A stretch of DNA of 64,000 nucleotides from Agromyces atrinae. Its GTDB lineage: Bacteria > Actinomycetota > Actinomycetes > Actinomycetales > Microbacteriaceae. Positions 20,395 through 64,000 of this stretch are shown here, piece by piece. The position numbers were made by a program, and so were the translations under genes. The notes beneath the pieces were generated by a model. The model searched no databases and had not been told where the DNA came from. It saw nothing but the letters and a program-made list of their open reading frames with translations. The DNA lies in contig NZ_JACCBI010000001.1 of assembly GCF_013407835.1 (NCBI RefSeq), positions 2,356,001-2,420,000 of the forward strand, in the 5' to 3' direction. Positions within the stretch are counted from its first letter, which is position 1; the number at the start of each line of letters is the position of its first letter.

Positions 20395-20781
20395 TCAGTC
20401 GTCGGTCGGGAACGACTCCTCCTTGACGGCGACGCCCTCGCTCGCGAGCTTCGCGACGAGGTGCGCGGCGTGGTTCGTGCTGAGGATCAGGCGGCTGAAC
20501 TCGCCGCCCGAGAGGTCGAGCACGACCGCCTGACGCTTGCCCTTGACGACGACGAAGTCGCGCCCCCCGTGGTTCTTCCACGCGCCGACGGCCACGGTGA
20601 GGGGCACGTGCGTTCCGCGGGTACGGATGCCGCGGATCCAGATCCACGGATCATCGGTGATCGTCGCCGAACGGATGTCGCTGCGGGCCACCACGACGTC
20701 GCTCGATCGCACCGCGAGGGCCTTCTCGGCGGTCGTCAGCTGGATCTCGAGTCGGTCGGGGTGCACACGCAGGTTCGCCAT
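20395..20781 (-). CDS. Conserved hypothetical protein, small beta-rich
   Basis: A 128-residue soluble protein with alternating hydrophobic strands (LRVHPDRLEIQLT, SDVVVARSDIRSATI, RDFVVVKGKRQAVVLDL) ending in an alpha helix (HAAHLVAKLASEGV). The pattern is compatible with a PH-like or bacterial PH-domain fold, but I cannot assign a family with certainty. The upstream bases CAGGAT-N6-ATG may again be a leaderless start. It faces a 328-bp intergenic region with a spaced inverted repeat. Confidence 0.75.
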   Translation of the reverse strand: MANLRVHPDRLEIQLTTAEKALAVRSSDVVVARSDIRSATITDDPWIWIRGIRTRGTHVPLTVAVGAWKNHGGRDFVVVKGKRQAVVLDLSGGEFSRLILSTNHAAHLVAKLASEGVAVKEESFPTDD

Positions 20782-50014: not shown

Positions 50015-51322
50015 TCAGCCCGGGCGCACCGCCGAAGCCGCCGCCTTCGCCGCGACCGGCAGCGCCTCGATGATGCGCGCGAGGGCGGCGTCGTCGTGAG
50101 CGGCCGTGACGAACCACGCCTCGAAGACCGACGGCGGCAGGTTCACCCCGGCGTCCTGCATCGCGTGGAAGAACGGCGGGTAGCGCCACGACTCCTGGCT
50201 CAGCACGCCCGCGTAGTCGCGCACTCCCCCGGCGACGGATTCACCGAAGACGAAGCTGAACAGGTTGCCCGCCGTCTGCACCGCGTGGGCGACTCCCGCC
50301 GCCGTGAGTGCGGCGGAGACCTCGGCCGACACCGCGGCGGCCGTTCGATCGAGGTGCGCGTACACCGCGTCATCCGCTCCGCGCAGCGTCGCGAGACCGG
50401 CGGCGACGGCGACCGGGTTACCCGAGAGAGTGCCCGCCTGGTAGACGGGGCCGAGCGGTGCGAGGTGCTCCATGACGTCGGCGCGACCGCCGAGGGCCGC
50501 GACGGGCAGTCCGCCGCCGATGACCTTGCCGAAGGTGAAGAGATCGGGCGTGTACGACCGGTCGAGTCCCCAGTAACCCGCGGACGAGACCCGGAACCCG
50601 GTGAGCACCTCGTCGACGATGAGCAGCGACCCGTTCGCGTGGGCGATCTCGGCGAGCGCGGCGTTGAAGCCGGCATCCGGGGCGACGACGCCCATGTTCG
50701 CGGCCGCGGACTCGACGATTAGCCCTGCGATGCGGTCGCCGTGTTCGGCGAACGCCGCGCGCACAGCATCGAGGTCGTTGTAGGGCAGCACGAGGGTGAG
50801 CGCCGCGATGGGGGCGGGCACGCCGGCCGAGCCGGGCAGGGCGAACGTCGCGACTCCCGAGCCCGCGGCGGCGAGCAGGCCGTCGGAGTGACCGTGGTAG
50901 TGACCGGCGAACTTGATGAGCAGGTCGCGGCCCGTGAATCCGCGCGCGAGACGGATCGCCGTCATCGTCGCCTCGGTGCCCGTCGAGACGAGGCGCACGC
51001 GCTCGACGGGAGCGACGCGTTCCTCGATGAGTTCGGCGAGCTCGGTCTCGGCGGGGGTCGATGCGCCGAACGAGAGACCGCGTGCCGCGGCATCCGTCAC
51101 GGCCTTCACGACGTCGGGGTGCGCGTGGCCGAGGATCGCAGGCCCCCAGCTCGCGACGAGGTCGACGTACTCGCGGCCCTCGGCGTCGGTCACGTACGGG
51201 CCCTGGGCCGACACGAGGAAGCGCGGCGTGCCGCCGACCGAGCCGTAGGCGCGCACGGGCGAGTTCACCCCGCCGGGGATCGCGGCGAGCGCGCGTTCGA
51301 AGAGTGCGGTGTTGTCGGTCAT
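50015..51322 (-). CDS. hemL: Glutamate-1-semialdehyde 2,1-aminomutase
   Basis: A 435-residue class III aminotransferase-fold enzyme that converts glutamate-1-semialdehyde to 5-aminolevulinate in the C5 route of haem synthesis. It shows the start [21 protein letters not shown], the motif [17 protein letters not shown], the PLP-Asp in [10 protein letters not shown] and the PLP-Lys in [14 protein letters not shown]. The ATG overlaps the hemB stop (51319-51322), so the two haem genes are coupled. It is of normal length, and adjacent hemB-hemL is a common actinobacterial order. Confidence 0.96.
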
Positions 51323-52317
51323 GCGTCGATCCCGTCGTTGAGCCAGCCGGCGAGCTCGGTCGCCCAGTACGTGAGCACGCCGTCGGCGCCGGCGCGCGTG
51401 ATGGCCGTGACCGACTCGATGACGGCGCGGCGCCGGTCGATCCAGCCGTGCATCGCGGCCGCCTCGATCATCGAGTACTCGCCCGACACCTGGTAGGCCC
51501 AGACGGGCACGTCGCTCGTCGCCGCGACATCCGCCAGCACATCGAGGTAGAAGCTCGCGGGCTTCACCATGACGATGTCGGCGCCCTCCTCGATGTCGAT
51601 GACGGCTTCGCGCACTCCCTCGCGGCCATTGCCGGGGTCGAGCTGGTACGCGCGCCGGTCGCCCTGGAGGGTCGACTCGACGGCGTCGCGGAACGGCCCG
51701 TAGAGAGCGGAGGCGTACTTCGCCGAGTACGCGAGGATCGCGGTGTCGACGAGGCCGGCCTCGTCGAGCGCCTCGCGCACGGCGGCGACCTGGCCGTCCA
51801 TCATTCCCGAGAGGCCGAGCAGCTGCGAGCCGGCGCGGGCCTGCTCGAGCGCCATCGCCTGGTAGCGCTCGAGGGTCGCATCGTTGTCGACGCGGCCGTC
51901 GGAGTCGAGGATGCCGCAGTGGCCGTGATCGGTGAACTCGTCGAGGCACAGGTCGGTCTGCACGACGATCGCGTCGCCGGCCTCCTCGCGCACGACCTGC
52001 GTCGCGAGGTTCAGGATGCCGCGCGGGTCGGTCGCCCCGGAGCCGCGCGCATCGCGCTCGGCGGGAACACCGAAGAGCATGACGCCGCCGACGCCGGCCT
52101 CGGCGGCCTCGGTCACGGCACGTCGCACGCTGTCGAGGCTGTGCTGCACGACGCCCGGCATCGAGCCGATCGGCATGGCCTCCTCGACGCCCTCGCGCAC
52201 GAAGAGCGGCAGGGTCAGGTCGGCGGGGTGCAGGCGCGTTTCGCGCACGGCCCGACGCAGAGCGGATGACTGGCGCAAGCGCCGCGGACGGACCCGGGGA
52301 ATCGGAGTGTCACTCAC
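51319..52317 (-). CDS. hemB: Delta-aminolevulinic acid dehydratase (porphobilinogen synthase)
   Basis: A 332-residue HemB that condenses two 5-aminolevulinates to porphobilinogen. Active-site lysines lie in [17 protein letters not shown] and [12 protein letters not shown], with the substrate-lid region between. The zinc-site region reads [18 protein letters not shown], with two Cys and His in place of three Cys. The GTG start at 52317 follows TAGGCT by six bases with no ribosome site, so the transcript is probably leaderless. Its promoter and start lie within the left direct repeat of the island, so the insertion occurred just upstream of hemB without removing its promoter. Confidence 0.96.
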
Positions 52318-52347
52318 CCGACCAGCCTACGCGCGCTCCCGGTAGGC
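52311..52347. repeat. Left 37-bp direct repeat flanking the accessory island
   Basis: These 37 bp match 62233-62269 at 32 positions (differences at repeat positions 6, 9, 10, 19, 28) in the same orientation. The left copy contains the hemB start codon (GTG, 52317) and its -10 box TAGGCT (minus strand, 52324-52329). It marks the left edge of the inserted region. Confidence 0.8.
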
Positions 52348-52740
52348 GGAGTCGGGTCAGATCGACTGGAGCTCGCGGCGGACGTCTCGTCGGAGACGTC
52401 TACGAGTGTGGCACTCCGATCGAGTACGAGACGGATCATCTAGCCGCGAGAACGTCAAGCGCCCGTTGATCGAAGACAGGTGCGCAGCCTGGTGACTCCG
52501 CCGAAACGCTGACCAGCTTGAGTTTCGACTGCGCCCTGTGAACCATGAGTTTCGAACGCCGGAATGCGGGGGTTCTGACCGCTCGAGACGAGGTGGTCAG
52601 AAACGATCGTTTCCGGCGTGATCCGTTCTGTCGTCCCGAAACGGGGTCCGTTAACGTTCACCCGAATCCCGATACGGCGGGGGTTCTCGGTCGGCTCGCG
52701 AACCGGCGTTGAGCCAGCGCCATACGGTAGTTCGGTTGGC
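52348..52740. other. Left island margin without a gene, hairpin and inverted motif
   Basis: I see no convincing gene in these roughly 390 bp. They hold a hairpin (GACGTCTC at 52381-52388 pairing with 52393-52400), an 8-bp inverted repeat TTCTGACC / GGTCAGAA (52573-52580, 52595-52602) and the 28-bp inverted-repeat copy A. Short open frames here have no recognised domains or ribosome sites. The stretch is probably decayed mobile-element DNA behind the DUF1254 gene. Confidence 0.6.
52590..52617 (+). repeat. 28-bp inverted repeat copy A (AAACGATCGTTT core)
   Basis: GAGGTGGTCAG followed by AAACGATCGTTTCCGGC. The reverse complement occurs at 60689-60716 with 26 of 28 identical positions, and 17 bases of it recur inverted in the palindrome at 54186-54215. 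The two 28-bp copies face each other across 8 kb like transposon ends. Confidence 0.7.
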
Positions 52741-54069
52741 CTATCTCTTGATGATCTTCGGCGGGGTGAAGTCTCCGGCAAGGGTTTCGGTAGTGGGCGA
52801 GTAGAGCCGGAGCATCGGGGCGAACGCTCCCTGTGGTGCAGGTAGCCAGTTCGCTTCGCGCTCGGTCCCCGGGGATGCGTACTGAATGTAGATGTCGAGT
52901 GAACCGTCAGGGTTGACGATCAGTGGGTCTCGGTCGCGAATCACGAAACGGTTCAGGGGGTTCGGGACCTGGAAGCCGTCGCCGTCGTACATCGTGAGGG
53001 ACCAGAAGGCATCCACGCCCGGCTGTTGGCCGGCGTCGAAGTGGAGCACGTAGTTGTGCTCTCCGGTGAACGGTTGACCGTCGGCGTCGACGAAGGCGTT
53101 GGGGTAGATCGCGTCCTCGGGCAGGTTTGCTCCGAGCCCGGCCATTGCGACAAGAGCGCGCACGCGATACGAGGTGCCGTACGTCCCGAACGACTGTTCC
53201 CAGTTCCACCCGTTTCGCACGATGCCGATGCTGGCTTCGGTCATCGCTTTCACGAGATCCTGCAGGGCCGTGTCTCGGGCTGCCGAGACGGCGGCAGTGG
53301 CAGCAGCGTCGAGCACCGCAGGGTTGAAGTCCTCGCCTGGCACGATCCCGATGGCGCGCATCCGGTGCAGGATCGGGTAGTCGTTAGCGTGCGGAGGGTT
53401 CTCTTTCAGCAACTCGGCAAAGAGTGTGAAGAACTCAACGCTGTTGAGCGCGTTCACCTGGTCTAGAGGCGGTGTCACATCATCCACGCGCGGGTCAACG
53501 GGTGCCGCAGAAGGCGTGCCTGATTCTTGGCCGTATGCGTCCATACGGGTGATGCGGTATTGGCCTTGGATGCGGTGAACTTCCGCGAAATCGTCGGGGC
53601 CGTTGCTCTGTGTGCGACCCATGACCCAGACGTGCGGCGTCGGTGCGACGATCAGGTCGAGTCCTCTGGGGACTTCGCCGCTCCACGCGGGTGGCGCGAT
53701 GAGGAAGTCGCGAGCTTCACCGAGGGTGTTTCGGCTGCCAGGAACGGCGAAGATGTCCGTCCACATGTCGAGCATGGGCGTGAGGTAGTACCGGTCAGGC
53801 GCATCGGGCGTGTGCAGAATCACAGGTCCGTCTCGGAGATCGAGCCACGCGAACGAGTAGAGCGTGTCGAAGTTGAAACGCACGACGTCCTTGGATTCTG
53901 CTGCGGGGTATTCCCGGGCGTGTGCGAACTGGTTTGCCGGTGCCCGCAACAACGCAGTATTCGCGTCCGGGACGTTCGTCATCTGGCGCCGCGTGAACTC
54001 CATCGTCACGAGCGGGTACGCGTACAGGTACGCGTCGACGGCAACCTTGCTGAGATCGAATTGCGACAT
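52741..54069 (-). CDS. DUF1254/DUF1214 domain protein
   Basis: A 442-residue protein of the DUF1254 (N-terminal) plus DUF1214 (C-terminal) family. Diagnostic blocks are DAYLYAYPLVTMEFTRRQM, VRFNFDTLYSFAWLDL, YLTPMLDMWTDIFAVPGSR, FDAGQQPGVDAFWSLTMYDGDGF and NPDGSLDIYIQYASPG. It has no signal peptide. The biochemical role of the family is not established; members occur near stress and degradation genes. The start at 54069 has GGGAGAA upstream. Its base composition is less extreme than hemB's, fitting its place in the island. A 30-bp palindrome lies 117 bp upstream. Confidence 0.9.
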   Translation of the reverse strand: MSQFDLSKVAVDAYLYAYPLVTMEFTRRQMTNVPDANTALLRAPANQFAHAREYPAAESKDVVRFNFDTLYSFAWLDLRDGPVILHTPDAPDRYYLTPMLDMWTDIFAVPGSRNTLGEARDFLIAPPAWSGEVPRGLDLIVAPTPHVWVMGRTQSNGPDDFAEVHRIQGQYRITRMDAYGQESGTPSAAPVDPRVDDVTPPLDQVNALNSVEFFTLFAELLKENPPHANDYPILHRMRAIGIVPGEDFNPAVLDAAATAAVSAARDTALQDLVKAMTEASIGIVRNGWNWEQSFGTYGTSYRVRALVAMAGLGANLPEDAIYPNAFVDADGQPFTGEHNYVLHFDAGQQPGVDAFWSLTMYDGDGFQVPNPLNRFVIRDRDPLIVNPDGSLDIYIQYASPGTEREANWLPAPQGAFAPMLRLYSPTTETLAGDFTPPKIIKR

Positions 54070-54185
54070 TAAGTTATTCTCCCTGGCTCCCTGGTACCTC
54101 GAAGACTAGGGTGAACCGCGCTCCCGAGGCCACAGTTCCGAATGGCGCAGCCCGCAACCACCGATGTCAGAAAGGTGCGCGCCTG

Positions 54186-54215
54186 GCCTGCCGGAAACGA
54201 TCGTTTACGGCAGGC
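54186..54215. repeat. 30-bp near-perfect palindrome, motif copy B
   Basis: GCCTGCCGGAAACGA is followed directly by TCGTTTACGGCAGGC, a 15+15 palindrome with one mismatch. Its core AAACGATCGTTT is shared with copies A and C. It lies between the DUF1254 start and the IS5-like element, 28 bp from the latter, and may be an operator or a relic of an element end. Confidence 0.7.
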
Positions 54216-54294
54216 GCACGAGTTCTCGTCGGACTCGCACCGCTAGGGCGTGTTGATCAAGAGGTTCCGCTCCTCGGTGGGTGAGTCTTGAACG

Positions 54295-55180
54295 GTGACG
54301 CGACAGGAAATCTCTGACGAGGCGTGGGCCGTGATGGAGCCGTTGATGCCGACGGTGACCGGTCGGTCGCGGCCGTGGACGGATCACCGGCTCGCTATCG
54401 AGGGGATGGCGTGGAAGTACCGGACCGGTGCGCCGTGGCGTGACGTTCCGGAACGGTTCGGGAAGTGGAACTCGATCTACAAGCGGTTCAACCGGTGGGC
54501 CGGGGACGGCACCTGGCAGAAGCTGCTCACCTAGGTGCAGAAGCAGGCCGACGCCGCTGGGGAAATCGACTGGGTCGTCTCGATCGACTCCACGATCGCG
54601 CGCGTGCATCAGCACGGCGCGACCCTCGCCCGGGACACAGGGGGCTGTGCCGAATCACAAGAATCCGTGGTCCGAGCCGCCTGATCACGGGATCGGACGC
54701 TCCCGCGGCGGGCTGACGACCAAACTGCACCTGGTCTGCGACGGCCGCGGCCGGCCGCTGAGCATGATGATCACCGCCGGGAACATCAACGACACCACGA
54801 TGATGAGCGCGGTGCTGGAGAACATCCGCGTTCCCCGCGACGGGAAGGGCCGCCCCCGCACCCGCCCCGACCGGGTGCTCGCCGACAAGGGGTACCCCTC
54901 AAGGGCGAACCGCGCCTGGCTCCGCGACCGGAGGATCGCGGCGACCATCCCCGAGCGGGACGACCAGATCGCGCACCGCCGCAAGAAGCCGGGCCGGCCG
55001 ATCGCTTTCGGCGACAAGCAGAAGGAACGCTACAAGGGACGCAACGTCGTAGAACGCTGCTTCAACCGTCTCAAGCAGTGGCGCGGCATCGCGATGCGCT
55101 CGGACAAACTCGCCCGCAACTACCGAGCCGCCGTCAGCCTCGCCGCGGCGCTGATCTGGATCAAGACCGATCTCCGCTGA
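54295..55180 (+). pseudogene. IS5-family transposase, nonsense codon and frameshift
   Basis: The DDE transposase is spread over two frames. The first part starts TRQEISDEAWAVMEPLMP and runs to a TAG at 54532-54534, continuing in frame with EIDWVVSIDSTIARVHQHGA (first catalytic Asp). After LARDTG the frame changes at a G5 run (54640-54644); the second frame gives AVPNHKNPWSEPP, RPDRVLADKGYPSRA (second Asp) and GRNVVERCFNRLKQWRG (Glu). An amber stop plus a one-base shift in a homopolymer show real inactivation rather than programmed frameshifting. Confidence 0.85.
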
Positions 55181-55490
55181 GCGCTTCGCGCTCCTGCAGC
55201 GTGCGCTCAAGCTGTCCCACCGTCGGCGCACCCGCAAAGCCGCGCTCGGTCAGATAGACCCTGCACGCCAAGTCGGCAGTGTTCCCCTGGGACGGGAACA
55301 AGTCCTGACCGTCTAGAAGAATCGTGGGCGAGCCCGCGAAACCAGAGCTCACCGCCTCAGCCTCGGTGCGGATCAACACGAACTCCACCGGAACATCGCC
55401 CCGTCCGATCGAGTCGAGCACCAGCCGTACTCGATCGCCCGCCTCCTGCCAATTCGGGCAATCCTCGATATGCAGCACCTGGATCTTCAC
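55161..55490 (-). CDS. Thioredoxin-fold 'DF family' (seleno)protein-like
   Basis: A 109-residue thioredoxin-like protein. Its start LHIEDCPNW has the Cys (residue 11) where the family has a redox Cys or selenocysteine. It ends SGFAGSPTILLDGQDLFP ... LACRVYLTERGFAGAPTVGQLERTL, the conserved tail of small actinobacterial proteins often found in mercury or copper islands. The GTG at 55490 is preferred over a longer start at 55550 that would lie inside the IS inverted repeat. It overlaps the 3' end of the dead transposase and lies inside the inverted repeats, so it travelled with the element. A redox or metal-handling role is inferred. Confidence 0.72.
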   Translation of the reverse strand: MKIQVLHIEDCPNWQEAGDRVRLVLDSIGRGDVPVEFVLIRTEAEAVSSGFAGSPTILLDGQDLFPSQGNTADLACRVYLTERGFAGAPTVGQLERTLQEREALSGDRS

Positions 55491-55592
55491 ACGCCCATTC
55501 TCCCACGCAACTCGCGGCGGCTGGCCGCCCCGCACCTTCTTGATCAACACGCCCTAGAGCTACCAGTCACGCGGGAATGCACACGACTGGCC

Positions 55593-55621
55593 TTGAGTTG
55601 GATACCCCCAGGGGGTATTTT
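55593..55621 (+). promoter_or_regulatory. csoR promoter with CsoR operator in the spacer
   Basis: A -35 TTGAGT (55593-55598) and a -10 TATTTT (55616-55621) are separated by 17 bp. ATACCCCCAGGGGGTAT (55602-55618), a perfect 8+1+8 palindrome typical for CsoR/RcnR family operators, covers the spacer and touches the -10. Repression by apo-CsoR and release by Cu(I) is expected. Confidence 0.88.
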
Positions 55622-55627
55622 TTAATC

Positions 55628-55909
55628 ATGAACGGGTACACCGACAACAAGGCTGATCTGCGTAAGCGGTTGAGTCGCGTCGAGGGTCAGGTGCGAGGGA
55701 TCGCACGGATGGTCGACGAAGACAAGTACTGCATCGACATCCTCACGCAGGTTTCTGCAGCGACGAAAGCGCTCGAAACGGTGGCGTTGTCGCTGCTGAG
55801 CGATCATCTGAGTCATTGCGTCGCCGAGGCCAGCGCTGAGGGCGGCGAAGTCGCGGCAGAGAAGGTCCGCGAGGCTAACGAAGCCATTGCCCGCCTGGTC
55901 CGTTCATAA
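55628..55909 (+). CDS. csoR: Copper-sensing transcriptional repressor CsoR
   Basis: A 93-residue DUF156/CsoR repressor with an all-helical fold. The Cu(I) ligands C35, H60 and C64 show the exact C-x24-H-x3-C spacing of CsoR, in YCIDILTQV and DHLSHCV; RVEGQVRGIARM is the DNA-contacting N-terminal helix. The ATG at 55628 is only seven bases after the -10, so the mRNA may be leaderless. It is the first gene of the copper cluster (csoR, HMA protein, copB), autoregulated through its own operator. Confidence 0.95.
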   Translation: MNGYTDNKADLRKRLSRVEGQVRGIARMVDEDKYCIDILTQVSAATKALETVALSLLSDHLSHCVAEASAEGGEVAAEKVREANEAIARLVRS

Positions 55910-55941
55910 CCGCCACGTCTGTCTACTTGAAGGAGCACACG

Positions 55942-56268
55942 ATGACTGATCGCATTGAACTTGGCCTGAAGGACGAGAACGCTGGCTGCGCGTGCTGTGC
56001 CGTTCCATCGAACACCGAGGCATCCACACCCACTGCGGCCTCGTCTTCCTCGGAAGAGGTTTTGGTTGCGGGTATGACGTGCTCGCATTGCGTGTCGAGC
56101 GTCAGTGACGAACTGACGGCTGTGGACGGTGTCGAGTCCGTCGACGTCGACTTGAACGCCGGCGGCATCTCCCGCGTGACCATCCACAGCGCAGCACCGG
56201 TCGATCCTGCTGCTGTGAGGGCTGCGGTCGAAGAGGCCGGCTATACCCTCGCGACCAGCCAGGCCTGA
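55942..56268 (+). CDS. Heavy-metal-associated (HMA) domain protein, CopZ-like
   Basis: A 108-residue protein. Residues 38-108 form an HMA domain with the Cu(I) motif GMTCSHC (C47, C50) and the ferredoxin-like beta-alpha pattern. An N-terminal extension carries a second cysteine cluster (GCACCAV, C16, C18, C19) not present in standard CopZ. It follows csoR and precedes the ATPase, and has the ribosome site GAAGGAG. It likely buffers or delivers Cu(I) to the ATPase. The extra cysteine cluster suggests a second metal site. Confidence 0.88.
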   Translation: MTDRIELGLKDENAGCACCAVPSNTEASTPTAASSSSEEVLVAGMTCSHCVSSVSDELTAVDGVESVDVDLNAGGISRVTIHSAAPVDPAAVRAAVEEAGYTLATSQA

Positions 56269-56322
56269 GTCGCTAACTGTCTGCACCCGGCTCGACCGGG
56301 CGCATCCGAGCAAGGAGTTCCG

Positions 56323-58443
56323 ATGAGCCAGCATGACGAACATAGCCATCACGCCGCGCACGAGAACCACGGCAGCGCGCCGACAACGGAGCATGACCAC
56401 GCGGCGATGAGCCACGATCACGACACTTCGCCAGAACATAGCGGCCATGGTGGTCACAGCGGACATGGTGGCCACGGTGATCATGTGGGCCAGTTCCGGC
56501 GGTTGTTCTGGATCATGCTGATCCTCGCGGTCCCGGTTGTCGGGTTCTCGATGCTGTTCTCGATGCTGCTCGGATACCCACTGCCAGACACCGCCTGGGT
56601 CGGGTGGATCTCCCCGGTTCTCGGAACCGTCATGTATGTGTGGGGCGGTGCCCCGTTCCTCACCGGCGCGGTGAGTGAGCTTCGCGCCCGTAAGCCCGGG
56701 ATGATGCTGCTGATCGCCCTCGCGATCACGGTGGCGTTCCTCGCGTCATGGGGTGCGAGTCTGGGCCTGTTGCACCACGAGTTGGATTTCTGGTGGGAGC
56801 TGGCCCTGCTGATCGTGATCATGCTGCTTGGTCACTGGATCGAGATGCGCTCTCTCGCGCAGACCACCTCGGCACTGGATTCCCTTGCCGCTCTGCTGCC
56901 CGATGAGGCGGAGAAGGTAGAGGGCGACACGACAACCACTGTCGCGCCTGCTGACTTGCTGGTGGGGGATGTCGTGGTGGTGCGCCCCGGCGGGCGGGTC
57001 CCCGCGGACGGGCGGATCGTGCAGGGCTCGGCGAGCATGGACGAGTCGATGATCACTGGCGAGTCCCGGCCGGTGCGCCGTAGCGACGGCGATCGGGTGA
57101 TCGCCGGCACGGTCGCGACCGATTCTGGTGTGCGGGTGGAGATCACTGCGATCGGTGAGGACACTGCTCTGGCGGGGATTCAGAAGCTAGTGACCGAGGC
57201 GCAGAGTTCGTCGTCGCGGGCGCAACGGCTCGCGGATAAGGCGGCGGGGTGGTTGTTCTGGTTCGCGCTCGGCGCTGCCGCGATCACCGCGATCGTGTGG
57301 ACGGTCGTCGGCCAGCCCGACGCCGCGGTGATCCGCACGATCACCGTGCTCGTGATCGCCTGCCCGCACGCTCTCGGCTTGGCGATCCCACTGGTTGTGT
57401 CGATCGCGACGGAGCGCGCCGCCCGTGGGGGTGTGCTGATCAAGGATCGTCTCGCGCTGGAGAGCATGCGTACCGTCGACACGGTCCTGTTCGACAAGAC
57501 CGGCACCCTCACTAAGGGCACCCCCGCCGTTACCGCGATCGACCCCGTCTCCGGCACCGATTCCGACCAGTTGCTGGCGTGGGCTGCGGCCGCGGAAGCG
57601 GACTCCGAGCACCCCCTCGCCCGCGCGATCGTGAACGCGGCCAAGGAGAAGAACCTCACCGTTCCCGCGTCCTCTGACTTCGAGTCGTCCCCGGCTGTCG
57701 GAGTTCGTGCGCGTGTCGATGGACACGTTATGCAAGTCGGTGGACCGTACATGCTCGAGCAGGAGAACGCCCACGAGCTGCCGGTTGCCGACGAGTGGCG
57801 CAATGAGGGTGCGATCATCCTCCACGTCCTCGTCGACGGCAAGGTTGCGGGCGCTCTACGCCTGGCAGACGAGATCCGCTCCGAGTCGCGTCACGCAGTC
57901 GAGGCCCTCCATGAGCGCGGTGTGCAGGTGGTCATGATCACCGGTGATGCCGATGCGGTCGCCGCCTCCGTGGCGGGCGAGCTGGGCATCGATCGTTACT
58001 TCGCCGGGGTGCGACCGGAGGACAAGGCCTCGAAGGTCAAAGAGCTGCAAGGCGAAGGCCGGAAGGTCGCGATGGTCGGAGACGGTGTGAACGATGCGCC
58101 TGCGCTCGCGCAGGCGGATGTCGGTATCGCCATCGGTGCGGGAACGGATGTCGCGATCGCCTCCGCCGGCGTCATCCTCGCCAGCGACGACCCCCGGTCG
58201 GTGCTCTCGGTGATCGAACTGTCCCGAGCCAGCTACCGGAAGATGAAGCAGAACCTCTGGTGGGCCGCCGGCTACAACCTCCTCTCCGTCCCGCTCGCAG
58301 CAGGCGTACTCGCCCCCATCGGTTTCGTGCTCCCGATGTCCGTGGGTGCCGTGCTGATGTCGTTGTCGACCATCGTCGTCGCGCTCAACGCGCAGCTGCT
58401 GCGCCGGCTGGACCTGCGCCCCGACGCAGTGGCCAGCAAGTAG
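56323..58443 (+). CDS. copB: Copper-translocating P-type ATPase, CopB type
   Basis: A 706-residue P1B-3-type ATPase. The N-terminus (1-55) is His-rich (SHHAAHENH, GHGGHSGHGGHGDH) rather than an HMA domain. The transmembrane metal motif is CPH at 347-349, distinguishing CopB from the CPC-type CopA. Asp391 in DKTGTLTKG is phosphorylated; GDGVNDAP is the hinge. It has the usual eight helices. CopB pumps Cu(II)/Ag(I) or Cu(I) out of the cell. It follows the HMA gene by about 55 bp, and the cluster is under the CsoR operator. Confidence 0.95.
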   Translation: MSQHDEHSHHAAHENHGSAPTTEHDHAAMSHDHDTSPEHSGHGGHSGHGGHGDHVGQFRRLFWIMLILAVPVVGFSMLFSMLLGYPLPDTAWVGWISPVLGTVMYVWGGAPFLTGAVSELRARKPGMMLLIALAITVAFLASWGASLGLLHHELDFWWELALLIVIMLLGHWIEMRSLAQTTSALDSLAALLPDEAEKVEGDTTTTVAPADLLVGDVVVVRPGGRVPADGRIVQGSASMDESMITGESRPVRRSDGDRVIAGTVATDSGVRVEITAIGEDTALAGIQKLVTEAQSSSSRAQRLADKAAGWLFWFALGAAAITAIVWTVVGQPDAAVIRTITVLVIACPHALGLAIPLVVSIATERAARGGVLIKDRLALESMRTVDTVLFDKTGTLTKGTPAVTAIDPVSGTDSDQLLAWAAAAEADSEHPLARAIVNAAKEKNLTVPASSDFESSPAVGVRARVDGHVMQVGGPYMLEQENAHELPVADEWRNEGAIILHVLVDGKVAGALRLADEIRSESRHAVEALHERGVQVVMITGDADAVAASVAGELGIDRYFAGVRPEDKASKVKELQGEGRKVAMVGDGVNDAPALAQADVGIAIGAGTDVAIASAGVILASDDPRSVLSVIELSRASYRKMKQNLWWAAGYNLLSVPLAAGVLAPIGFVLPMSVGAVLMSLSTIVVALNAQLLRRLDLRPDAVASK

Positions 58444-58494
58444 CAAGAAACAGTCGGGACGACGGACGTAGGCTGAGAGGAACGGGAGGTGAGT

Positions 58495-58956
58495 ATGTCG
58501 CTGATCAACGTCGCACAACAGGTGCGGGGACCGCGCACGCTCACTCACACCGTCTTGGCCGTCATCGCGGTCGCCGTGGGCATCATCGCCGGCCTGCTGG
58601 CGATGCACTCCTTCAACTCGCACGCGACAACTGCCGGCCACCACGACACCGTCGCTGTCAGCACTCAAGCCGGAGCGTCCGACCATCATCGCGATGCGTC
58701 CGCTTCCGCCGTCTTGCCGGACTCACCGCAAGTGGACGCGGGATGCGCGACGTGCGGGGGCACGGACTCGATGACGTGGATGGCGTGCGTCCTCGCGCTC
58801 CTGGTCGCCACAATCCTGCTCGGACGGATCGGGCTCGGCTGGCGGCACTCGACACTGATCGAAATGCTCACGGCCGCGACGACGCGCTGGCCCGCCCGCG
58901 CTCACGCCCTCCCGCCACCCCCCTCTCTCACGGTCCTCTGCATCAGTCGCACGTGA
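58495..58956 (+). CDS. DUF6153-like membrane protein of copper islands
   Basis: A 153-residue protein: an N-terminal membrane helix (AVIAVAVGIIAGLLAMHSF), an external Ser/His-rich part with GHHDTV and DHHRDASAS, a CxxC motif (CATCGG), a second helix (WMACVLALLVATILLGRI) and the conserved C-terminal VLCISRT, which is typical of DUF6153 proteins found in actinobacterial copper clusters. The ATG at 58495 has GGGAGG ahead of it. Its function is unknown; copper handling at the membrane is inferred from the His/Cys content and context. Confidence 0.8.
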   Translation: MSLINVAQQVRGPRTLTHTVLAVIAVAVGIIAGLLAMHSFNSHATTAGHHDTVAVSTQAGASDHHRDASASAVLPDSPQVDAGCATCGGTDSMTWMACVLALLVATILLGRIGLGWRHSTLIEMLTAATTRWPARAHALPPPPSLTVLCISRT

Positions 58957-59038
58957 TGGCGCGCTAGCCCGCTCTGCGGGCACGCACCCCTGGCACCGGC
59001 AGTAGCCGGGCCTCATCACCGACCCTTGGAGAACACTC

Positions 59039-59638
59039 ATGAAGATTCGACCCGCGGCGATCGCCGCACTCACCCTCACAGCTCTGCTCGCTCTCACCGG
59101 CTGCGCCGGAAACACCGGTTCCGGCGACGGCATGGAAGGCATGGACCACGGCGGAAGCTCGTCCGCACCCGCCGACACAGCCGACGCGAATGACGCCGAC
59201 ATCATGTTCGCCAGCATGATGAAGGAGCACCACGCGCAGGCCATCGAAATGTCCGACGTCCTTCTCAGCAAGGACGGCGTCGATGAACGCGTCGTTGCTC
59301 TCGCGGAAGAGATCAAGGCCGCTCAGGAGCCGGAGATCCAGAAGATGGATCAGTGGCTTGAAGACTGGGGCGCGGAGATGGACAGCATGGAGGGCATGGA
59401 TCACGGCGACGGCATGATGTCCGAGGAAGACATGCAGGCCCTCGAAGATGCCACCGGTCCCGATGCGGGGCGTCTGTTCCTCGAGCAGATGATCCAGCAC
59501 CACGAGGGCGCTGTCGACATGGCACAGGAAGAAGTCGACAACGGTCAGAACAGCGACGCCGTCGCACTCGCTGAGACGATCATCGACGCGCAGACCGAAG
59601 AGATCGCCACCATGAAGGAGATCCTCGCAACCCTGTGA
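59039..59638 (+). CDS. DUF305 family lipoprotein
   Basis: A 199-residue lipoprotein: lipobox LTGC (Cys about residue 22), a Met/His-rich linker (MEGMDHGGSS) and a DUF305 domain of ferritin-like helical duplicated type with motifs MMKEHHAQAIEM and MIQHHEGAVDM. Methionine-rich stretches (MDSMEGMDHGDGMM) suggest Cu(I) or Ag(I) binding. DUF305 proteins are common in metal-resistance islands and are thought to bind metals outside the membrane. Located after copB and ended by a strong hairpin. Confidence 0.9.
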   Translation: MKIRPAAIAALTLTALLALTGCAGNTGSGDGMEGMDHGGSSSAPADTADANDADIMFASMMKEHHAQAIEMSDVLLSKDGVDERVVALAEEIKAAQEPEIQKMDQWLEDWGAEMDSMEGMDHGDGMMSEEDMQALEDATGPDAGRLFLEQMIQHHEGAVDMAQEEVDNGQNSDAVALAETIIDAQTEEIATMKEILATL

Positions 59639-59643
59639 TCCAT

Positions 59644-59676
59644 TGGGTGGGGTGCGGGACTCCCGCACCCCACCCA
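59644..59676 (+). terminator. 15-bp stem terminator after the DUF305 gene
   Basis: TGGGTGGGGTGCGGG (59644-59658) pairs perfectly with 59662-59676 around a 3-base loop. It ends the csoR-copB-DUF305 transcript just behind the lipoprotein gene. Confidence 0.85.
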
Positions 59677-59698
59677 GTGATCTGTTGCGCACACCATC

Positions 59699-60565
59699 AT
59701 GCGAACCCTCAAGACGTCCATGCTGCCCACCTTCCGAACGCGACGCCGTGCGGCACTGACGGTCGCGACAACGATCTCGGCCAGCATCGTGCTGGCCGGG
59801 TGCACCGCACCCGCCGAGCCCACCACCGGACACGACCACGCCACCACCATCAGCCACGTTCACGCGATCGTGCCCAACCCCGCAGAGGACGGGTACCTCC
59901 TGGGCGCCCATGACGGGATCTACACGGCCACATCCGATGGCGAGGTCGGCTCCCGTATCGAGACCACCGACTTCGACGCGATGGGCCTCATCACCGTCGG
60001 TGACGCTCTCCTCGCGTCCGGGCATCCCGGACCGACCACGCCCCCAGAACTCGGCTCCCCCAACCTCGGAATCATCCGGAGCGACGACAGCGCCAGATCT
60101 TGGACGCCCGTCTCGTTCACTGGCGAGAAAGACTTCCACGTCCTTGCCGCCGGGAAGAACGACACCCTCTACGGGATCGCCTCGGACTCCGCGGAGCTCC
60201 TCCGCACCGACGATCTCGGTGAGACCTGGTCGCCGGTCGGAGAAATCCTGGCGTTCAGCCTCGTCCTCGACAACGCGGGACAACTGATCGCTGCCACCCC
60301 AGACGGGCTGCAAATCAGCACTGATGAGGGCGCCACCTTCGCGCCCCTGAACGACGCACCTGCGCTCTACCTCCTCGCCGTATCGCCTGACGGCAAACAG
60401 CTGGTCGGTGTCGGCCGCGGCGGGCAGATCTGGGCCAGCACAGGATCCAACGCCGAGTGGGTTCCCGCCGGCGTCACCCATGGCTCCGCGCAAGCGCTCG
60501 CGACCACGAACGACGGTGACATCTTGGTCTTTGATGACAGCGGCCTGGCGGCAATCGCCAAGTAG
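59699..60565 (+). CDS. F510_1955-type BNR/sialidase-like lipoprotein
   Basis: A 288-residue lipoprotein with a signal peptide and lipobox LAGC (about residue 34), followed by a His-rich start (HDHATTISHVHAI) and beta-propeller blades with Asp-box-like sequences (RSDDSARSWTPV, RTDDLGETWSPV, STDEGATFAPL). The family (F510_1955, glycosylhydrolase-like) is linked to copper and mercury islands; the repeats are structural, and no hydrolase site is evident. Located after the terminator, about 60 bp from the DUF305 gene. Last intact gene of the copper cluster. Confidence 0.82.
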   Translation: MRTLKTSMLPTFRTRRRAALTVATTISASIVLAGCTAPAEPTTGHDHATTISHVHAIVPNPAEDGYLLGAHDGIYTATSDGEVGSRIETTDFDAMGLITVGDALLASGHPGPTTPPELGSPNLGIIRSDDSARSWTPVSFTGEKDFHVLAAGKNDTLYGIASDSAELLRTDDLGETWSPVGEILAFSLVLDNAGQLIAATPDGLQISTDEGATFAPLNDAPALYLLAVSPDGKQLVGVGRGGQIWASTGSNAEWVPAGVTHGSAQALATTNDGDILVFDDSGLAAIAK

Positions 60566-60688
60566 CCGAGAAGACGACATCTCCAGCGGAAGGCGCTCAC
60601 TTGTCCCGCTATACGCCGAAACTGTCTGCCGATAAGAGGTTTCGGCGAACCATAGCGGCACGCCTTCGAGCGCCGACTAACTGCTGCT

Positions 60689-60716
60689 GCCGCAAACGAT
60701 CGATTCTGACCACCTC
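60689..60716 (-). repeat. 28-bp inverted repeat copy C
   Basis: The reverse complement of these 28 bp matches copy A (52590-52617) at 26 of 28 positions. Copies A and C point inwards across 8.1 kb that covers the DUF1254 gene, the IS5-like element and the copper cluster. No 5-bp target duplication is visible outside them. Confidence 0.7.
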
Positions 60717-60771
60717 CCGATTGTGGATGGGTGGTGCCACACATGAACTCGCCTTGTGTTTCCGACTTGAC

Positions 60772-61120
60772 TCACTTGTACGGCGACTCAGTCCTCTCGA
60801 CCTGGTGATACTCGCTGAATTCCTTTGGCGTGAGATCGGATATTGCCTCGGACATTCCATCGGGATCGATGCTTGGTCCTACAACAGTGCGGAACCCCTG
60901 GCGCGCGTGAAAGCTAGGAACTCCAAGGTCTATTCCACCAACGATGATCGATTCAGGATCTTGATCGCGGATTACGGGATGCTGCGGAGTCAGGAGATCG
61001 AAATTGAGGAACTGCTTGATACCGGCAGCCCACGGAACGTGGATGAACTTTGGCTTGCTACCACCCTCCATGAGCGGCGAGATCAGCCGCCACTCACGCT
61101 CAGCGGCGAACGACGAACTT
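60772..61120 (-). pseudogene. DUF2971-like protein, 3' fragment
   Basis: A roughly 117-codon minus-strand fragment with the DUF2971 signature FAAEREWRLIS near its start, ESIIVGGIDLG in the middle and the tail VERTESPYK. The N-terminal half (with the usual Trp/His-rich part) is missing: upstream of about 61120 the frame is only the shadow of the plus-strand gene. The stop at 60772 is intact. Base composition is well below that of the flanking chromosome. It is a remnant of an accessory gene; DUF2971 proteins occur in defence-type and mobile loci, but their role is unknown. Confidence 0.65.
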
Positions 61121-61888
61121 GTGACTGACACCACCAACCTCGAGAACCGTCTTGTTGATATCCACGTGGCGCCTCTAGACCACCATGACCTAGGCAAGAT
61201 ACTCGACGTTGGCGAACATCTTTTGAATCTCGATTTCTCGAGAATCCGCACCCGCCTTCTGAATACTGCAGTCGGCACGGCAAGTATCGCGCATGCTCTC
61301 GCGCTTGCCTGCTGTAACGAGCGAGACATCACCCAGGGAGGCAAGGAGAAGGTCATCTTCACTGAAGATGACTTTCGGGAAGCCGCGCAAGCCTACGTAC
61401 GCACGCGGTCGGGTGCGGTAAAGGCCAGATTCACCCGCGCTCTCAAAGTTCACCGCAAACGGATGTATGACAACACCGAGATAATCCTCCGTGCCCTCAC
61501 ACAGCTCCCAGAAAGCGGCGGAACGGTCGGGCAGATTCTTGCGATTATTCGTGTCGAGAAGCCCAGCTACCCGTCGAGCAACGCGACCAAGTACCTTCAG
61601 GAGCTGCAAGAAGAGGCGCGCGGTTCGCTGATACGTAAGACGTCATCCGGTGTCTACCGATTCGATGAACCACTCCAGCACGCATACGCAAAGGCATACT
61701 TCGGAGAACCCTCAGACGAGACCGAGGGGACACCAATTAGCGATTGGGAGTCAGCGTTCATTAGCCAGGGCAAGGAGTTCATAACCCGTCTGCTCGTTCA
61801 AAGGGAGATTGAAGAAAATCGATACGCCATGACGGACGATGAACCTACCGAAGAGTGGGAGCTCGAGGAAAATGAATCGAAGGCGTAG
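61121..61888 (+). CDS. C-terminal part of an AAA-ATPase-like protein
   Basis: From the GTG at 61121 a 255-residue frame starts with RLVDIHVAPLDHHDLGKILD, typical of the sensor-2/lid region after an AAA ATPase core. It goes on with HALALACCNERDI, an acidic/basic helix region and a winged-helix-like domain (ALTQLPESGGTVGQILAII ... YLQELQEEARGSLIRKTSSGVYRF). Walker A and B motifs are absent, so the 5' part was lost at the same point where the DUF2971 fragment ends. It is probably non-functional. The low-GC composition fits foreign origin. Confidence 0.6.
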   Translation: MTDTTNLENRLVDIHVAPLDHHDLGKILDVGEHLLNLDFSRIRTRLLNTAVGTASIAHALALACCNERDITQGGKEKVIFTEDDFREAAQAYVRTRSGAVKARFTRALKVHRKRMYDNTEIILRALTQLPESGGTVGQILAIIRVEKPSYPSSNATKYLQELQEEARGSLIRKTSSGVYRFDEPLQHAYAKAYFGEPSDETEGTPISDWESAFISQGKEFITRLLVQREIEENRYAMTDDEPTEEWELEENESKA

Positions 61889-62232
61889 CGAAGCATGACC
61901 CTGCCAGCTCAGTCGCAGCGGAGCGCCCCTACCGAATAGATCTGAGATTCGCCGACAGATCCCCTTTCAGATCCAGTAGCTAGTTTAGAAACGTGCTGCT
62001 GAGCATCCTCTACAAACCAGTATGTAGTTGGGCGCTGCACGGGCAGCGCCCAACTGGTCCCTCTCGGGCGCTTCATCACGTCGGTTCCAGTGGGGGCGGA
62101 TTCGCTCACACCGAGCGATTCCGCTGCACGCAATCGTGCGAGCTTGGAATGAGGGGCCCTCAAATCCGGTGTCGAAGCGTCGACCAGCCACACAGGCCGA
62201 TAAGCACTGACGCAGAGGCTGTAACCGCTGGC
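61889..62232. other. Right island margin with one hairpin, no gene
   Basis: No convincing coding sequence is seen in this 344-bp stretch. A strong hairpin (AGTTGGGCGCTGC at 62026-62038 with 62043-62055, loop of four) looks like a terminator for the plus-strand fragment. The part from 62060 to 62232 has no ribosome sites or domains. It ends at the right direct repeat. Confidence 0.6.
62026..62055 (+). terminator. 13-bp stem hairpin in the right island margin
   Basis: AGTTGGGCGCTGC pairs perfectly with GCAGCGCCCAACT around ACGG. It lies 138 bp after the AAA-like fragment and before the right repeat. No T tract. Confidence 0.65.
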
Positions 62233-62269
62233 CACTCGCCGAACCAGCCTGCGCGCGCTGCCGGTAGGC
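62233..62269. repeat. Right 37-bp direct repeat flanking the accessory island
   Basis: It matches 52311-52347 at 32 of 37 positions. In this copy the hemB features have decayed (minus-strand -10 TAGGCT to CAGGCT; start GTG to GCG). On the plus strand it ends in TAGGCT (62265-62270), which serves as the -10 box for the nfeD transcript. Confidence 0.8.
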
Positions 62270-62318
62270 TTGATCTGATGTCCGCGGGGGCGGGCATCAC
62301 GACCCGGAGGGAGCCTCG

Positions 62319-62789
62319 ATGCTCACGCCCTTCCTGATCATCGGTGGCATCGGTCTGCTCATCCTGATCATCTCGCTCGTCGTCGGAGACATCTTCGACC
62401 ACTTCGAGATCGGTGATGGCGCGATCTCGGGCACGGCGCTCGGCGTCGCCGCCACGGTCTTCGGCGCGGCCGGCGTGCTGACCGCCGGCGCCGACCTCGA
62501 CATCGTGTGGGCCTATGTGCTCGCCGCGGTGCTCGCCGTCGCCGCCTACGTCGTCGCGCTGCTCCTCGTGAAGCGCCTCACCGCGTCATCCGATGGAGAG
62601 CTGCAGAGCGCCGTGGGCCTCACGGGCATCTCGCGCTCCGACATCTCCGTCGCGGGCGGCGAGGTGAGCCTCGACGGACCGCACGAGATCGAGCGCCGCC
62701 TCGCGTTCTCCGACCAGCCGATCCCCGAGGGTGTGCGTATCCGCGTCATCGAACACACCGGCACCCGGGTCAAGGTCGAACCGGCCTGA
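62319..62789 (+). CDS. NfeD-like membrane protein
   Basis: A 156-residue protein: three to four membrane helices (LIIGGIGLLILIISLVVG, GTALGVAATVFGAAGVLTAG, VLAAVLAVAAYVVALLLV) and a C-terminal OB-fold domain (AVGLTGISRSDISVAGGEVSL ... RVIEHTGTRVKVEPA), the NfeD pattern. NfeD proteins work with flotillins in membrane microdomains, and the next gene is a flotillin, 86 bp downstream. CGGAGGGA is the ribosome site. A 19-codon open frame (62278-62337) begins seven bases after TAGGCT and overlaps the start; it may be a leader peptide. Confidence 0.9.
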   Translation: MLTPFLIIGGIGLLILIISLVVGDIFDHFEIGDGAISGTALGVAATVFGAAGVLTAGADLDIVWAYVLAAVLAVAAYVVALLLVKRLTASSDGELQSAVGLTGISRSDISVAGGEVSLDGPHEIERRLAFSDQPIPEGVRIRVIEHTGTRVKVEPA

Positions 62790-62875
62790 CCCCGACGCGA
62801 CACCGCCGGACCTGACATCCACCGGCCCCCGGCCGGACCACGACCACGCTCCGAACAGTCCATCGAGAGGACAGC

Positions 62876-64000
62876 ATGGAATCCCAGCCCTACATTCAAG
62901 TGATCGCGATCGTGGCGATCATCGTCGCGGTGCTCGCACTCGTCGTGTTCATCGCGCGCCGCATTCGCCGCGTACCGCCGAACGAGGCGCTCGTCATCGT
63001 CGGCCGTGGCGCCGGCCGCAAGGCGGCGGGTGAACCGACCGGACAGCGCGTCGTCATCGGCGGCCGCACCTTCGTCTGGCCGATCCTGCAGCAGGGCTTC
63101 TCGATCTCGCTCGAGCAGCGCCAGATCGGCATCACCGTCGAGGGTGTCGACAAGAACCGCATCAAGATCGCGATCAAGGCCTCGATCAACTTCAAGGTCT
63201 CGGGCACCGAAGAGGGCGTGCGCCGCGCCGCCCAGCGATTCCTCTCGCAGCAGGGCGCTCTCACCGACATCATCAAGGAGTCGCTCGAGGGTTCGCTGCG
63301 CTCCATCGTCGGTGACATGACGATCGAGCAGATCATCTCCGACCGCAAGAGCCTCTCCGACCGGGTCGTCGCCGAGACGAAGACCGACCTCGTCGAGCAG
63401 GGCCTCCAGGTCGACCTCCTCAACATCTCCGACATCTCGACGCCGGGCAGCGACTACCTCGCGAACCTCGGTCGTGCCGAAGCCGCGCGTGCCCGCCAGG
63501 TCGCCGAGGTCTCCGAGGCCGAGGCCGCACGTGCGAGTGAGTTCGCGCGCATCGAGGCGGCCGAGCAGATCGCCGAGCGTCAGAAGGCTCTGAGCCTCCG
63601 CCAGGCGACGATCAAGGCCGAGACCGACAAGGCGAACGCCGAGGCCGAGGCCGCCGGTCAGCTCGCGAAGGCCGGCCAAGACCGCCTCGTCGCCGTCGAG
63701 GAGCGCGAGGCGCTCACCGAGCAGGCGCTCGTCGAGCAGGAGCGCCTCGACATCGAGGTGCGCAAGCCCGCCGAGGCCGAGGCGTACGCCGAGGTTCAGC
63801 GCGCGACCGCCCAGCGTGACGCCGCGAACGCCGCGACCGAGGCCGACGCCTTCAAGCGCACGAAGATCGCCGAGGCGAACAAGGTCGCCGCCGTGCAGGA
63901 CGCCGAGGCGTCCGCCGCCGCCGTCCGCTTCGCCGGTGAGGCCGAGCGTGACCGCCAGGTCGCCCTCGCCGCCGGTATCACCGCCGAGGGTGAGGCACGC
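62876..64000 (+). CDS. Flotillin family protein (SPFH domain), 5' part
   Basis: A 375-codon open frame that runs off the window. It has an N-terminal membrane helix (VIAIVAIIVAVLALVVFIARR), the flotillin start VPPNEALVIVGRGAGRK, an SPFH domain (to about residue 190, LISDISTPG-like LLNISDIST) and long Ala/Glu-rich coiled-coil repeats (AEAARARQVAEVSEAEAARA), typical for flotillins (YqiK/FloT). The ATG at 62876 has GAGAGGA upstream. It probably scaffolds ordered membrane domains with NfeD. The C-terminus is outside the window. Confidence 0.93.
   Translation, partial: MESQPYIQVIAIVAIIVAVLALVVFIARRIRRVPPNEALVIVGRGAGRKAAGEPTGQRVVIGGRTFVWPILQQGFSISLEQRQIGITVEGVDKNRIKIAIKASINFKVSGTEEGVRRAAQRFLSQQGALTDIIKESLEGSLRSIVGDMTIEQIISDRKSLSDRVVAETKTDLVEQGLQVDLLNISDISTPGSDYLANLGRAEAARARQVAEVSEAEAARASEFARIEAAEQIAERQKALSLRQATIKAETDKANAEAEAAGQLAKAGQDRLVAVEEREALTEQALVEQERLDIEVRKPAEAEAYAEVQRATAQRDAANAATEADAFKRTKIAEANKVAAVQDAEASAAAVRFAGEAERDRQVALAAGITAEGEAR

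Follow-up and report, generated by a model that had tools for sequence, protein, structure and literature searches.

A 9.9-kb copper-resistance island between hemB and nfeD of Agromyces atrinae and the imperfect 37-bp direct repeat at its ends

In the window analysed here (the whole stretch of 64,000 nucleotides, to which all positions refer), 9.9 kb of imported DNA with copper-resistance genes aboard lie between hemB and an nfeD-type gene of the soil actinobacterium Agromyces atrinae. Both ends of this island carry traces of the promoters of both host genes, which raises the question of how an insertion into such a control region came about and why both genes seem to have kept a promoter.

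The repeat and its two promoter halves

Comparison of the two island ends (Table 1) revealed 32 identical bases out of 37, ungapped and in direct orientation, with a start-to-start spacing of 9,922 bp. When the 151 bp surrounding the hemB start were scored against positions 52401-64000 (ungapped, +1/-2), the repeat reached 22, compared to a mean of 11.6 and a maximum of 18 in 400 dinucleotide shuffles (Gumbel fit, p 4.5e-6) and a top score of 15 for 60 real 151-bp segments from the same window. Comparing 300 bp at each end led to p 1.2e-7, with 1,000 shuffles peaking at 14. The direct repeat described in the initial annotation is thus real, and its individual letters could be read off the sequence as claimed: on the minus strand, the right copy has GCG for GTG and CAGGCT for TAGGCT, and on the plus strand, the left copy reads TAGGCG at 52343 where the right copy has TAGGCT at 62265. 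At 37 bp, it exceeds usual transposon target duplications in length. A degenerate pattern of the repeat occurred just twice across 60 genomes of the genus, both times in the genome of Agromyces atrinae. Among named sequences, the best match to hemB comes from A. bracchium (80%), in line with the genus Agromyces.

Table 1. Features of the hemB-nfeD region (positions within the window)
Feature	Position	Strand	Remarks
hemB (5-aminolevulinate dehydratase, PF00490)	51319..52317	-	
Left 37-bp copy	52311..52347	+	hemB codons 1-2, putative hemB promoter, nfeD -10 relic TAGGCG (last base just outside)
hemB -10 box TAGGCT	52324..52329	-	conserved across genus
Left arm, 28-bp inverted repeat (26/28)	52590..52617	+	outer end of copper segment
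DUF1254/DUF1214 protein	52741..54069	-	
Third copy of palindromic core (AAACGATCGTTT)	54195..54206	.	
IS5-family element with passenger gene	54244..55556	+	TA at both ends
DF-family (seleno)protein-like passenger ORF in IS	55161..55550	-	63.5 bits, below NCBIfam cut-off of 70
CsoR/RicR-type repressor	55577..55909	+	Trns_repr_metal over Pfam cut-off; RicR model below its cut-off
CopZ-like HMA protein	55927..56268	+	HMA over Pfam cut-off; CopZ models below theirs
Copper-translocating P-type ATPase	56323..58443	+	
DUF6153 protein	58489..58956	+	
DUF305 / CopM-type metallochaperone	59039..59638	+	
F510_1955 family protein	59699..60565	+	
Right arm, 28-bp inverted repeat	60689..60716	-	
C-terminal remnant, DUF2971-like	60772..61131	-	
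C-terminal remnant, 482-aa-type ATP-binding protein (PADLOC PDC-S59)	61121..61888	+	P-loop half missing
Right 37-bp copy	62233..62269	+	relic hemB start GCG and -10 CAGGCT; nfeD -10 (last base just outside)
nfeD -10-like box TAGGCT	62265..62270	+	fits genus motif CCGnTAGGGT
nfeD-type membrane protein gene	62319..62789	+	no Pfam/NCBIfam match; name from initial annotation and flotillin neighbour
Flotillin/SPFH gene (Band_7)	62876..64000	+	extends 336 bp past window end

Each half of the repeat resembles a motif that is conserved in the genus. The hemB motif CGTAGG(C/G)T-N5-8-GTGA was found at 48 of 50 hemB loci, including that of Agromyces atrinae, and is absent in L210 and L212; the -10 spacing of TAGGCT-N6-GTG presumably reflects a leaderless mRNA. 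A box of the type CCGnTAGGGT was detected upstream of nfeD in 31 of 34 other genomes, with the motif beginning at -49 to -66 from the start codon, and in Agromyces atrinae it begins at -57 from the ATG. Promoter activity of both boxes is presumed from these motifs.

The left copy has an intact hemB block and over its first 23 bp is identical to the block at the hemB start in G014, G029, and G056, while its nfeD-like box is spoiled at the last base. In the right copy, the last 10 bp match the nfeD box of the genus, while the hemB-like half (19/23) has a spoiled -10 box and start codon. Four of the five mismatches sit in the hemB half, which is dispensable to the right copy. A comparable relic of a hemB start appeared in none of 34 other nfeD upstream regions (300 bp each), the best match being 15/23. 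The case for complementary decay is built on five substitutions within the 37 bp and one just outside. Folding of 261 bp at the left end of the island gave a z of -2.1; a search for RNA elements resulted in one match, mir-5345 (E 0.49, far below the gathering score), which we take as chance.

The locus in related genomes

The initial annotation had proposed to look for relatives with adjacent hemB and nfeD and one copy of the 37-bp sequence. Using nfeD DNA as a query, 56 of 60 genomes of the genus revealed matches at E <= 1e-3, the weaker ones mostly short, and nfeD was counted in 35 genomes (own included) at E <= 1e-43, so that diverged nfeD genes in the other 25 genomes may be missed. Checking roughly 13-17 kb upstream of nfeD in the 34 other genomes, we found hemB beside nfeD only in G014, divergent and free of the island; adjacency therefore exists but is not the general arrangement, and the second part of the proposal found no support, since the 37-bp pattern at <=3 mismatches was found in none of the 59 other genomes, with no single-copy relative among them. 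In G014, 350 bp lie between hemB and nfeD, the promoters are placed separately, and the 37-bp sequence is absent. Within this gap (L048:1850-2189) lies a palindromic stretch, GGAATCCGGC...GCCGGATTCC, possibly a small repeat element that has made the gap longer.

Gene-by-gene comparison of 12 other genomes, 10 from the genus and 2 from another one, revealed the order hemC-hemD-hemB-hemL on one strand, with hemC assigned by PF01379, hemL by the class-III aminotransferase domain PF00202, and hemD by uroporphyrinogen-III synthase models with scores below their cut-offs. Between hemD and hemB, G014 harbors nfeD, flotillin, and a short-chain dehydrogenase gene; G029, G038, and G056 harbor a short-chain dehydrogenase gene (PF00106 in G029), and the interval of Agromyces atrinae holds nfeD and flotillin together with a patatin-type gene (PF01734). 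A quick HemB tree (52 rows) placed G014, G029, G038, and G056 as the sister clade of Agromyces atrinae with moderate support (SH-aLRT 83, not starred), while the SPFH tree left the placement of Agromyces atrinae versus G014 unresolved. Given the island-free G014, the HemB clade, and the gene contents, the ancestor of this small clade probably already had nfeD-flotillin beside hemB, with the island arriving later. A convergent arrival of nfeD-flotillin beside hemB is also conceivable. Among 249 sampled genomes of the family, SPFH relatives were found in 27 and hemB in 213; among the matches listed, an SPFH gene of 55-56% identity faces hemB at a distance of about 4.5 kb in three genomes of another genus (G094, G168, and G224).

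Of 58 genomes with hemD and hemB on the same contig, 21 (own included) have more than 1 kb between the two genes, and the gap of Agromyces atrinae is the largest of them with 13.8 kb. By eye, the largest other insertions comprise sugar transport, oxidoreductase, regulator, and membrane genes. In Agromyces, this spot inside the heme operon seems to take up cargo of various kinds again and again. None of 23 other gaps, 20 of them above 1 kb, contained a repeat of the hemB start; two short gaps scored above the maximum of 20 shuffles (G059, 15 vs. 13; G036, 13 vs. 12) and G043 tied with it (16 vs. 16; 20 shuffles), their matches beginning 85-90 bp upstream of the hemB start. In the same region, about 29 kb (20781-50015) lie between hemL and a gene at 20398-20781 that adjoins hemL in 12 compared genomes, representing a second large insertion or a rearrangement.

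Possible origins of the repeat

The account that in our judgement fits best, and that we hold to be somewhat probable rather than proven, is that one compact divergent promoter was duplicated at insertion, followed by reciprocal decay. According to this, hemB and nfeD would have been divergent neighbors in an ancestor of the lineage, with their promoters back to back within about 40 bp. An accessory patch would then have entered between them, and the promoter region would have been duplicated on insertion. Afterwards, the left copy may have lost the -10 box of nfeD and the right copy the -10 box and start codon of hemB, so that each would have kept just the promoter facing the gene it still touched. 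The patch may have held or later gathered the copper-export cluster, the IS5-family element, and the broken defence-like genes, and it now looks immobile. We infer the direction of change, the order of events, and the single-copy ancestor.

The initial annotation had already suggested a duplicated ancestral divergent promoter. Adjacency in G014, the conserved halves, and their complementary decay agree with it, as do the score of the repeat, well beyond chance, the lack of a comparable hemB relic at 34 other nfeD genes, and the drop in G+C at 60.5-62 kb; against it stand the missing single-copy ancestor among 59 genomes and the wide gap with separate promoters in G014. Relics of both promoters in each copy fit the decayed duplicate of one compact divergent promoter, but imperfect attachment arms fit almost equally well, since the same halves would then be non-native, and sequence alone does not separate the two. 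No agent leaving a 37-bp duplication was identified.

In another reading, which we consider possible but doubtful, the real transposon is the 8.1-kb stretch bounded by the 28-bp inverted repeats, and the 37-bp repeat goes back to an earlier, separate event. Terminal inverted repeats (28 bp, 26/28) do bound the copper segment, and 26 bp of the left arm (52591-52616) occur exactly in another genus (G280, L213:1502-1527), about 300 bp from what by eye looks like a tRNA 3' fragment. This shared stretch is possibly the end of a mobile element. On the other hand, no target duplication was visible by eye at the arms, whose flanks share no direct repeat, and the only transposase found among the scanned ORFs belongs to the inner IS5 element, a unit with ends of its own. 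A 23-bp arm pattern (<=2 mismatches) was detected in only one of 298 other genomes of the family, again G280, and a 19-bp arm core (<=1 mismatch) in none of 395 other genomes in an order sample. Moreover, this reading leaves the 37-bp repeat unexplained. Comparison of the arms with plasmids in search of known transposon ends resulted in only weak or unrelated matches; viral contigs revealed no match to one arm pattern, and a looser one matched three contigs that share only a 14-bp palindrome and a few bases beyond. In both G280 and the island, two GTTTCGA motifs lie 42-82 bp before the 26-bp match, and ARAGORN detected no intact tRNA in L235.

Within the duplication account, break repair may serve as a mechanism rather than as an alternative: a staggered double-strand break in the promoter would have been filled on both sides and a foreign fragment ligated by Ku-dependent end joining. 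The genome encodes Ku (PF02735, E 1e-50), so that end joining of a staggered break is possible, though the presence of Ku shows this and nothing more, and an overhang of 37 nt is long. The lack of a recombinase found nearby, the site not being reused, and the mosaic of truncated genes in the right part of the island are in line with such a repair, which we put forward tentatively and regard as rather unlikely.

The initial annotation had suggested an attachment site. In such a case, an element would have integrated at the 5' end of hemB and since lost its integrase, with the repeats as its attL and attR. The crossover core would be an identical block, for instance the 8 bp CGCGCGCT, and the non-native halves would be attP arms that never were identical. 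The pattern of mismatches suits such arms equally well. Islands at the 5' end of dusA, as far as described in PMC4482086, are flanked by semiconserved direct repeats of 21-28 bp and supply a new 5' end with a promoter, and the length and imperfect identity of the 37-bp repeat roughly fit this type. As had been noted, no integrase was found among the 15 island ORFs scanned against Pfam, a scan outside which other, mostly overlapping, ORFs lie, and the nearest of three matches to PF00589 (tyrosine recombinase) in the whole genome is 1.28 Mb from the island. As to the checks that had been proposed, no linked recombinase turned up in these scans, and none of the 20 other gaps above 1 kb revealed a hemB-start repeat as a sign of further use of the site. 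No attP-like match was obtained with the right copy plus 6-8 bp of flank: among the best 8 of 28 phage matches the lowest E is 1, and among the best 8 of 18 plasmid matches it is 0.02, from 23 bp inside an Asp/Glu racemase gene. A 27-bp pattern was absent from viral contigs. This reading is therefore weak and unsupported, and we consider it unlikely.

Finally, coincidence between two unrelated promoters rich in CGCG and TAGGC, prompted by the promoter-like ends with TAGGC on one strand of each, is hardly credible in view of the shuffle and real-segment nulls. Shared promoter function was likewise rejected as the cause of the match, since one matching half per copy seems functionless and cannot have been produced by it.

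If the duplicated divergent promoter is the right explanation, the insertion struck the control region of this heme gene without doing harm because the promoter itself was duplicated, and the locus offers a readable case of how a two-way promoter divides into two one-way ones. This split is the interesting part, though it rests on very few bases. No precedent was found in a narrow literature search on two-way promoters and promoter duplication. We think it quite improbable that there is a whole class of insertions directed at compact divergent promoters, duplicating their target and thereby leaving both host genes with a promoter at no cost; were this true, the two copies would specialise, each losing one direction, as a division of labour at the promoter level.

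Island cargo and comparison with known systems

The island is composite, consisting of about 240 bp without clear genes at its left end, a plasmid-type copper cluster within the 28-bp inverted repeats, an IS5-family insertion, and truncated defence-like genes. The flanks have a G+C content of about 66-74% and the copper part one of 60-71%, and at 60.5-62 kb it drops to 55-56%. The remnants of the DUF2971-like gene and the defence-candidate PDC-S59 ATPase meet at their broken 5' ends (about 61,120-61,130), and this junction is the scar of a deletion or rearrangement. The copper genes are ordinary cargo; CsoR, an HMA chaperone, a copper P-type ATPase, and DUF305 follow each other in the order of an actinobacterial copper-resistance cluster.

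With dusA-specific genomic islands, as far as PMC4482086 describes them, the island shares its position at the 5' end of a housekeeping gene, flanking att-like direct repeats that are imperfect (here 32/37), and putative host-gene promoters before and after insertion. In contrast, an integrase is the one universal feature of those islands in that account, while none was found among the 15 ORFs scanned in the hemB-nfeD island, and the dusA site is described there as used in more than 200 bacteria, while no reuse was found at hemB in the gaps compared.

Like other IS5-family elements (NF033580), the 1.3-kb element of the island has a transposase, inverted ends, and TA at both ends. It differs by its passenger ORF, which it shares with copies on two Microbacterium plasmids. 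These copies are 99.3-99.4% identical to it, which argues for a recent insertion, and other plasmid matches (80-88%) span only the transposase part of about 930 bp.

The closest parallels to the copper cluster considered here are on actinobacterial plasmids, for example that of Microbacterium proteolyticum (NZ_CP121273.1), which harbors csoR-copZ-ATPase-DUF6153-DUF305-F510_1955 in the same order and of the same families, with ATPase DNA 81.6% identical to that of the island. While the plasmid cluster has an extra second ATPase and a four-helix copper-binding protein, that of the island is chromosomal and carries a DUF1254 gene and the IS5-family element upstream.
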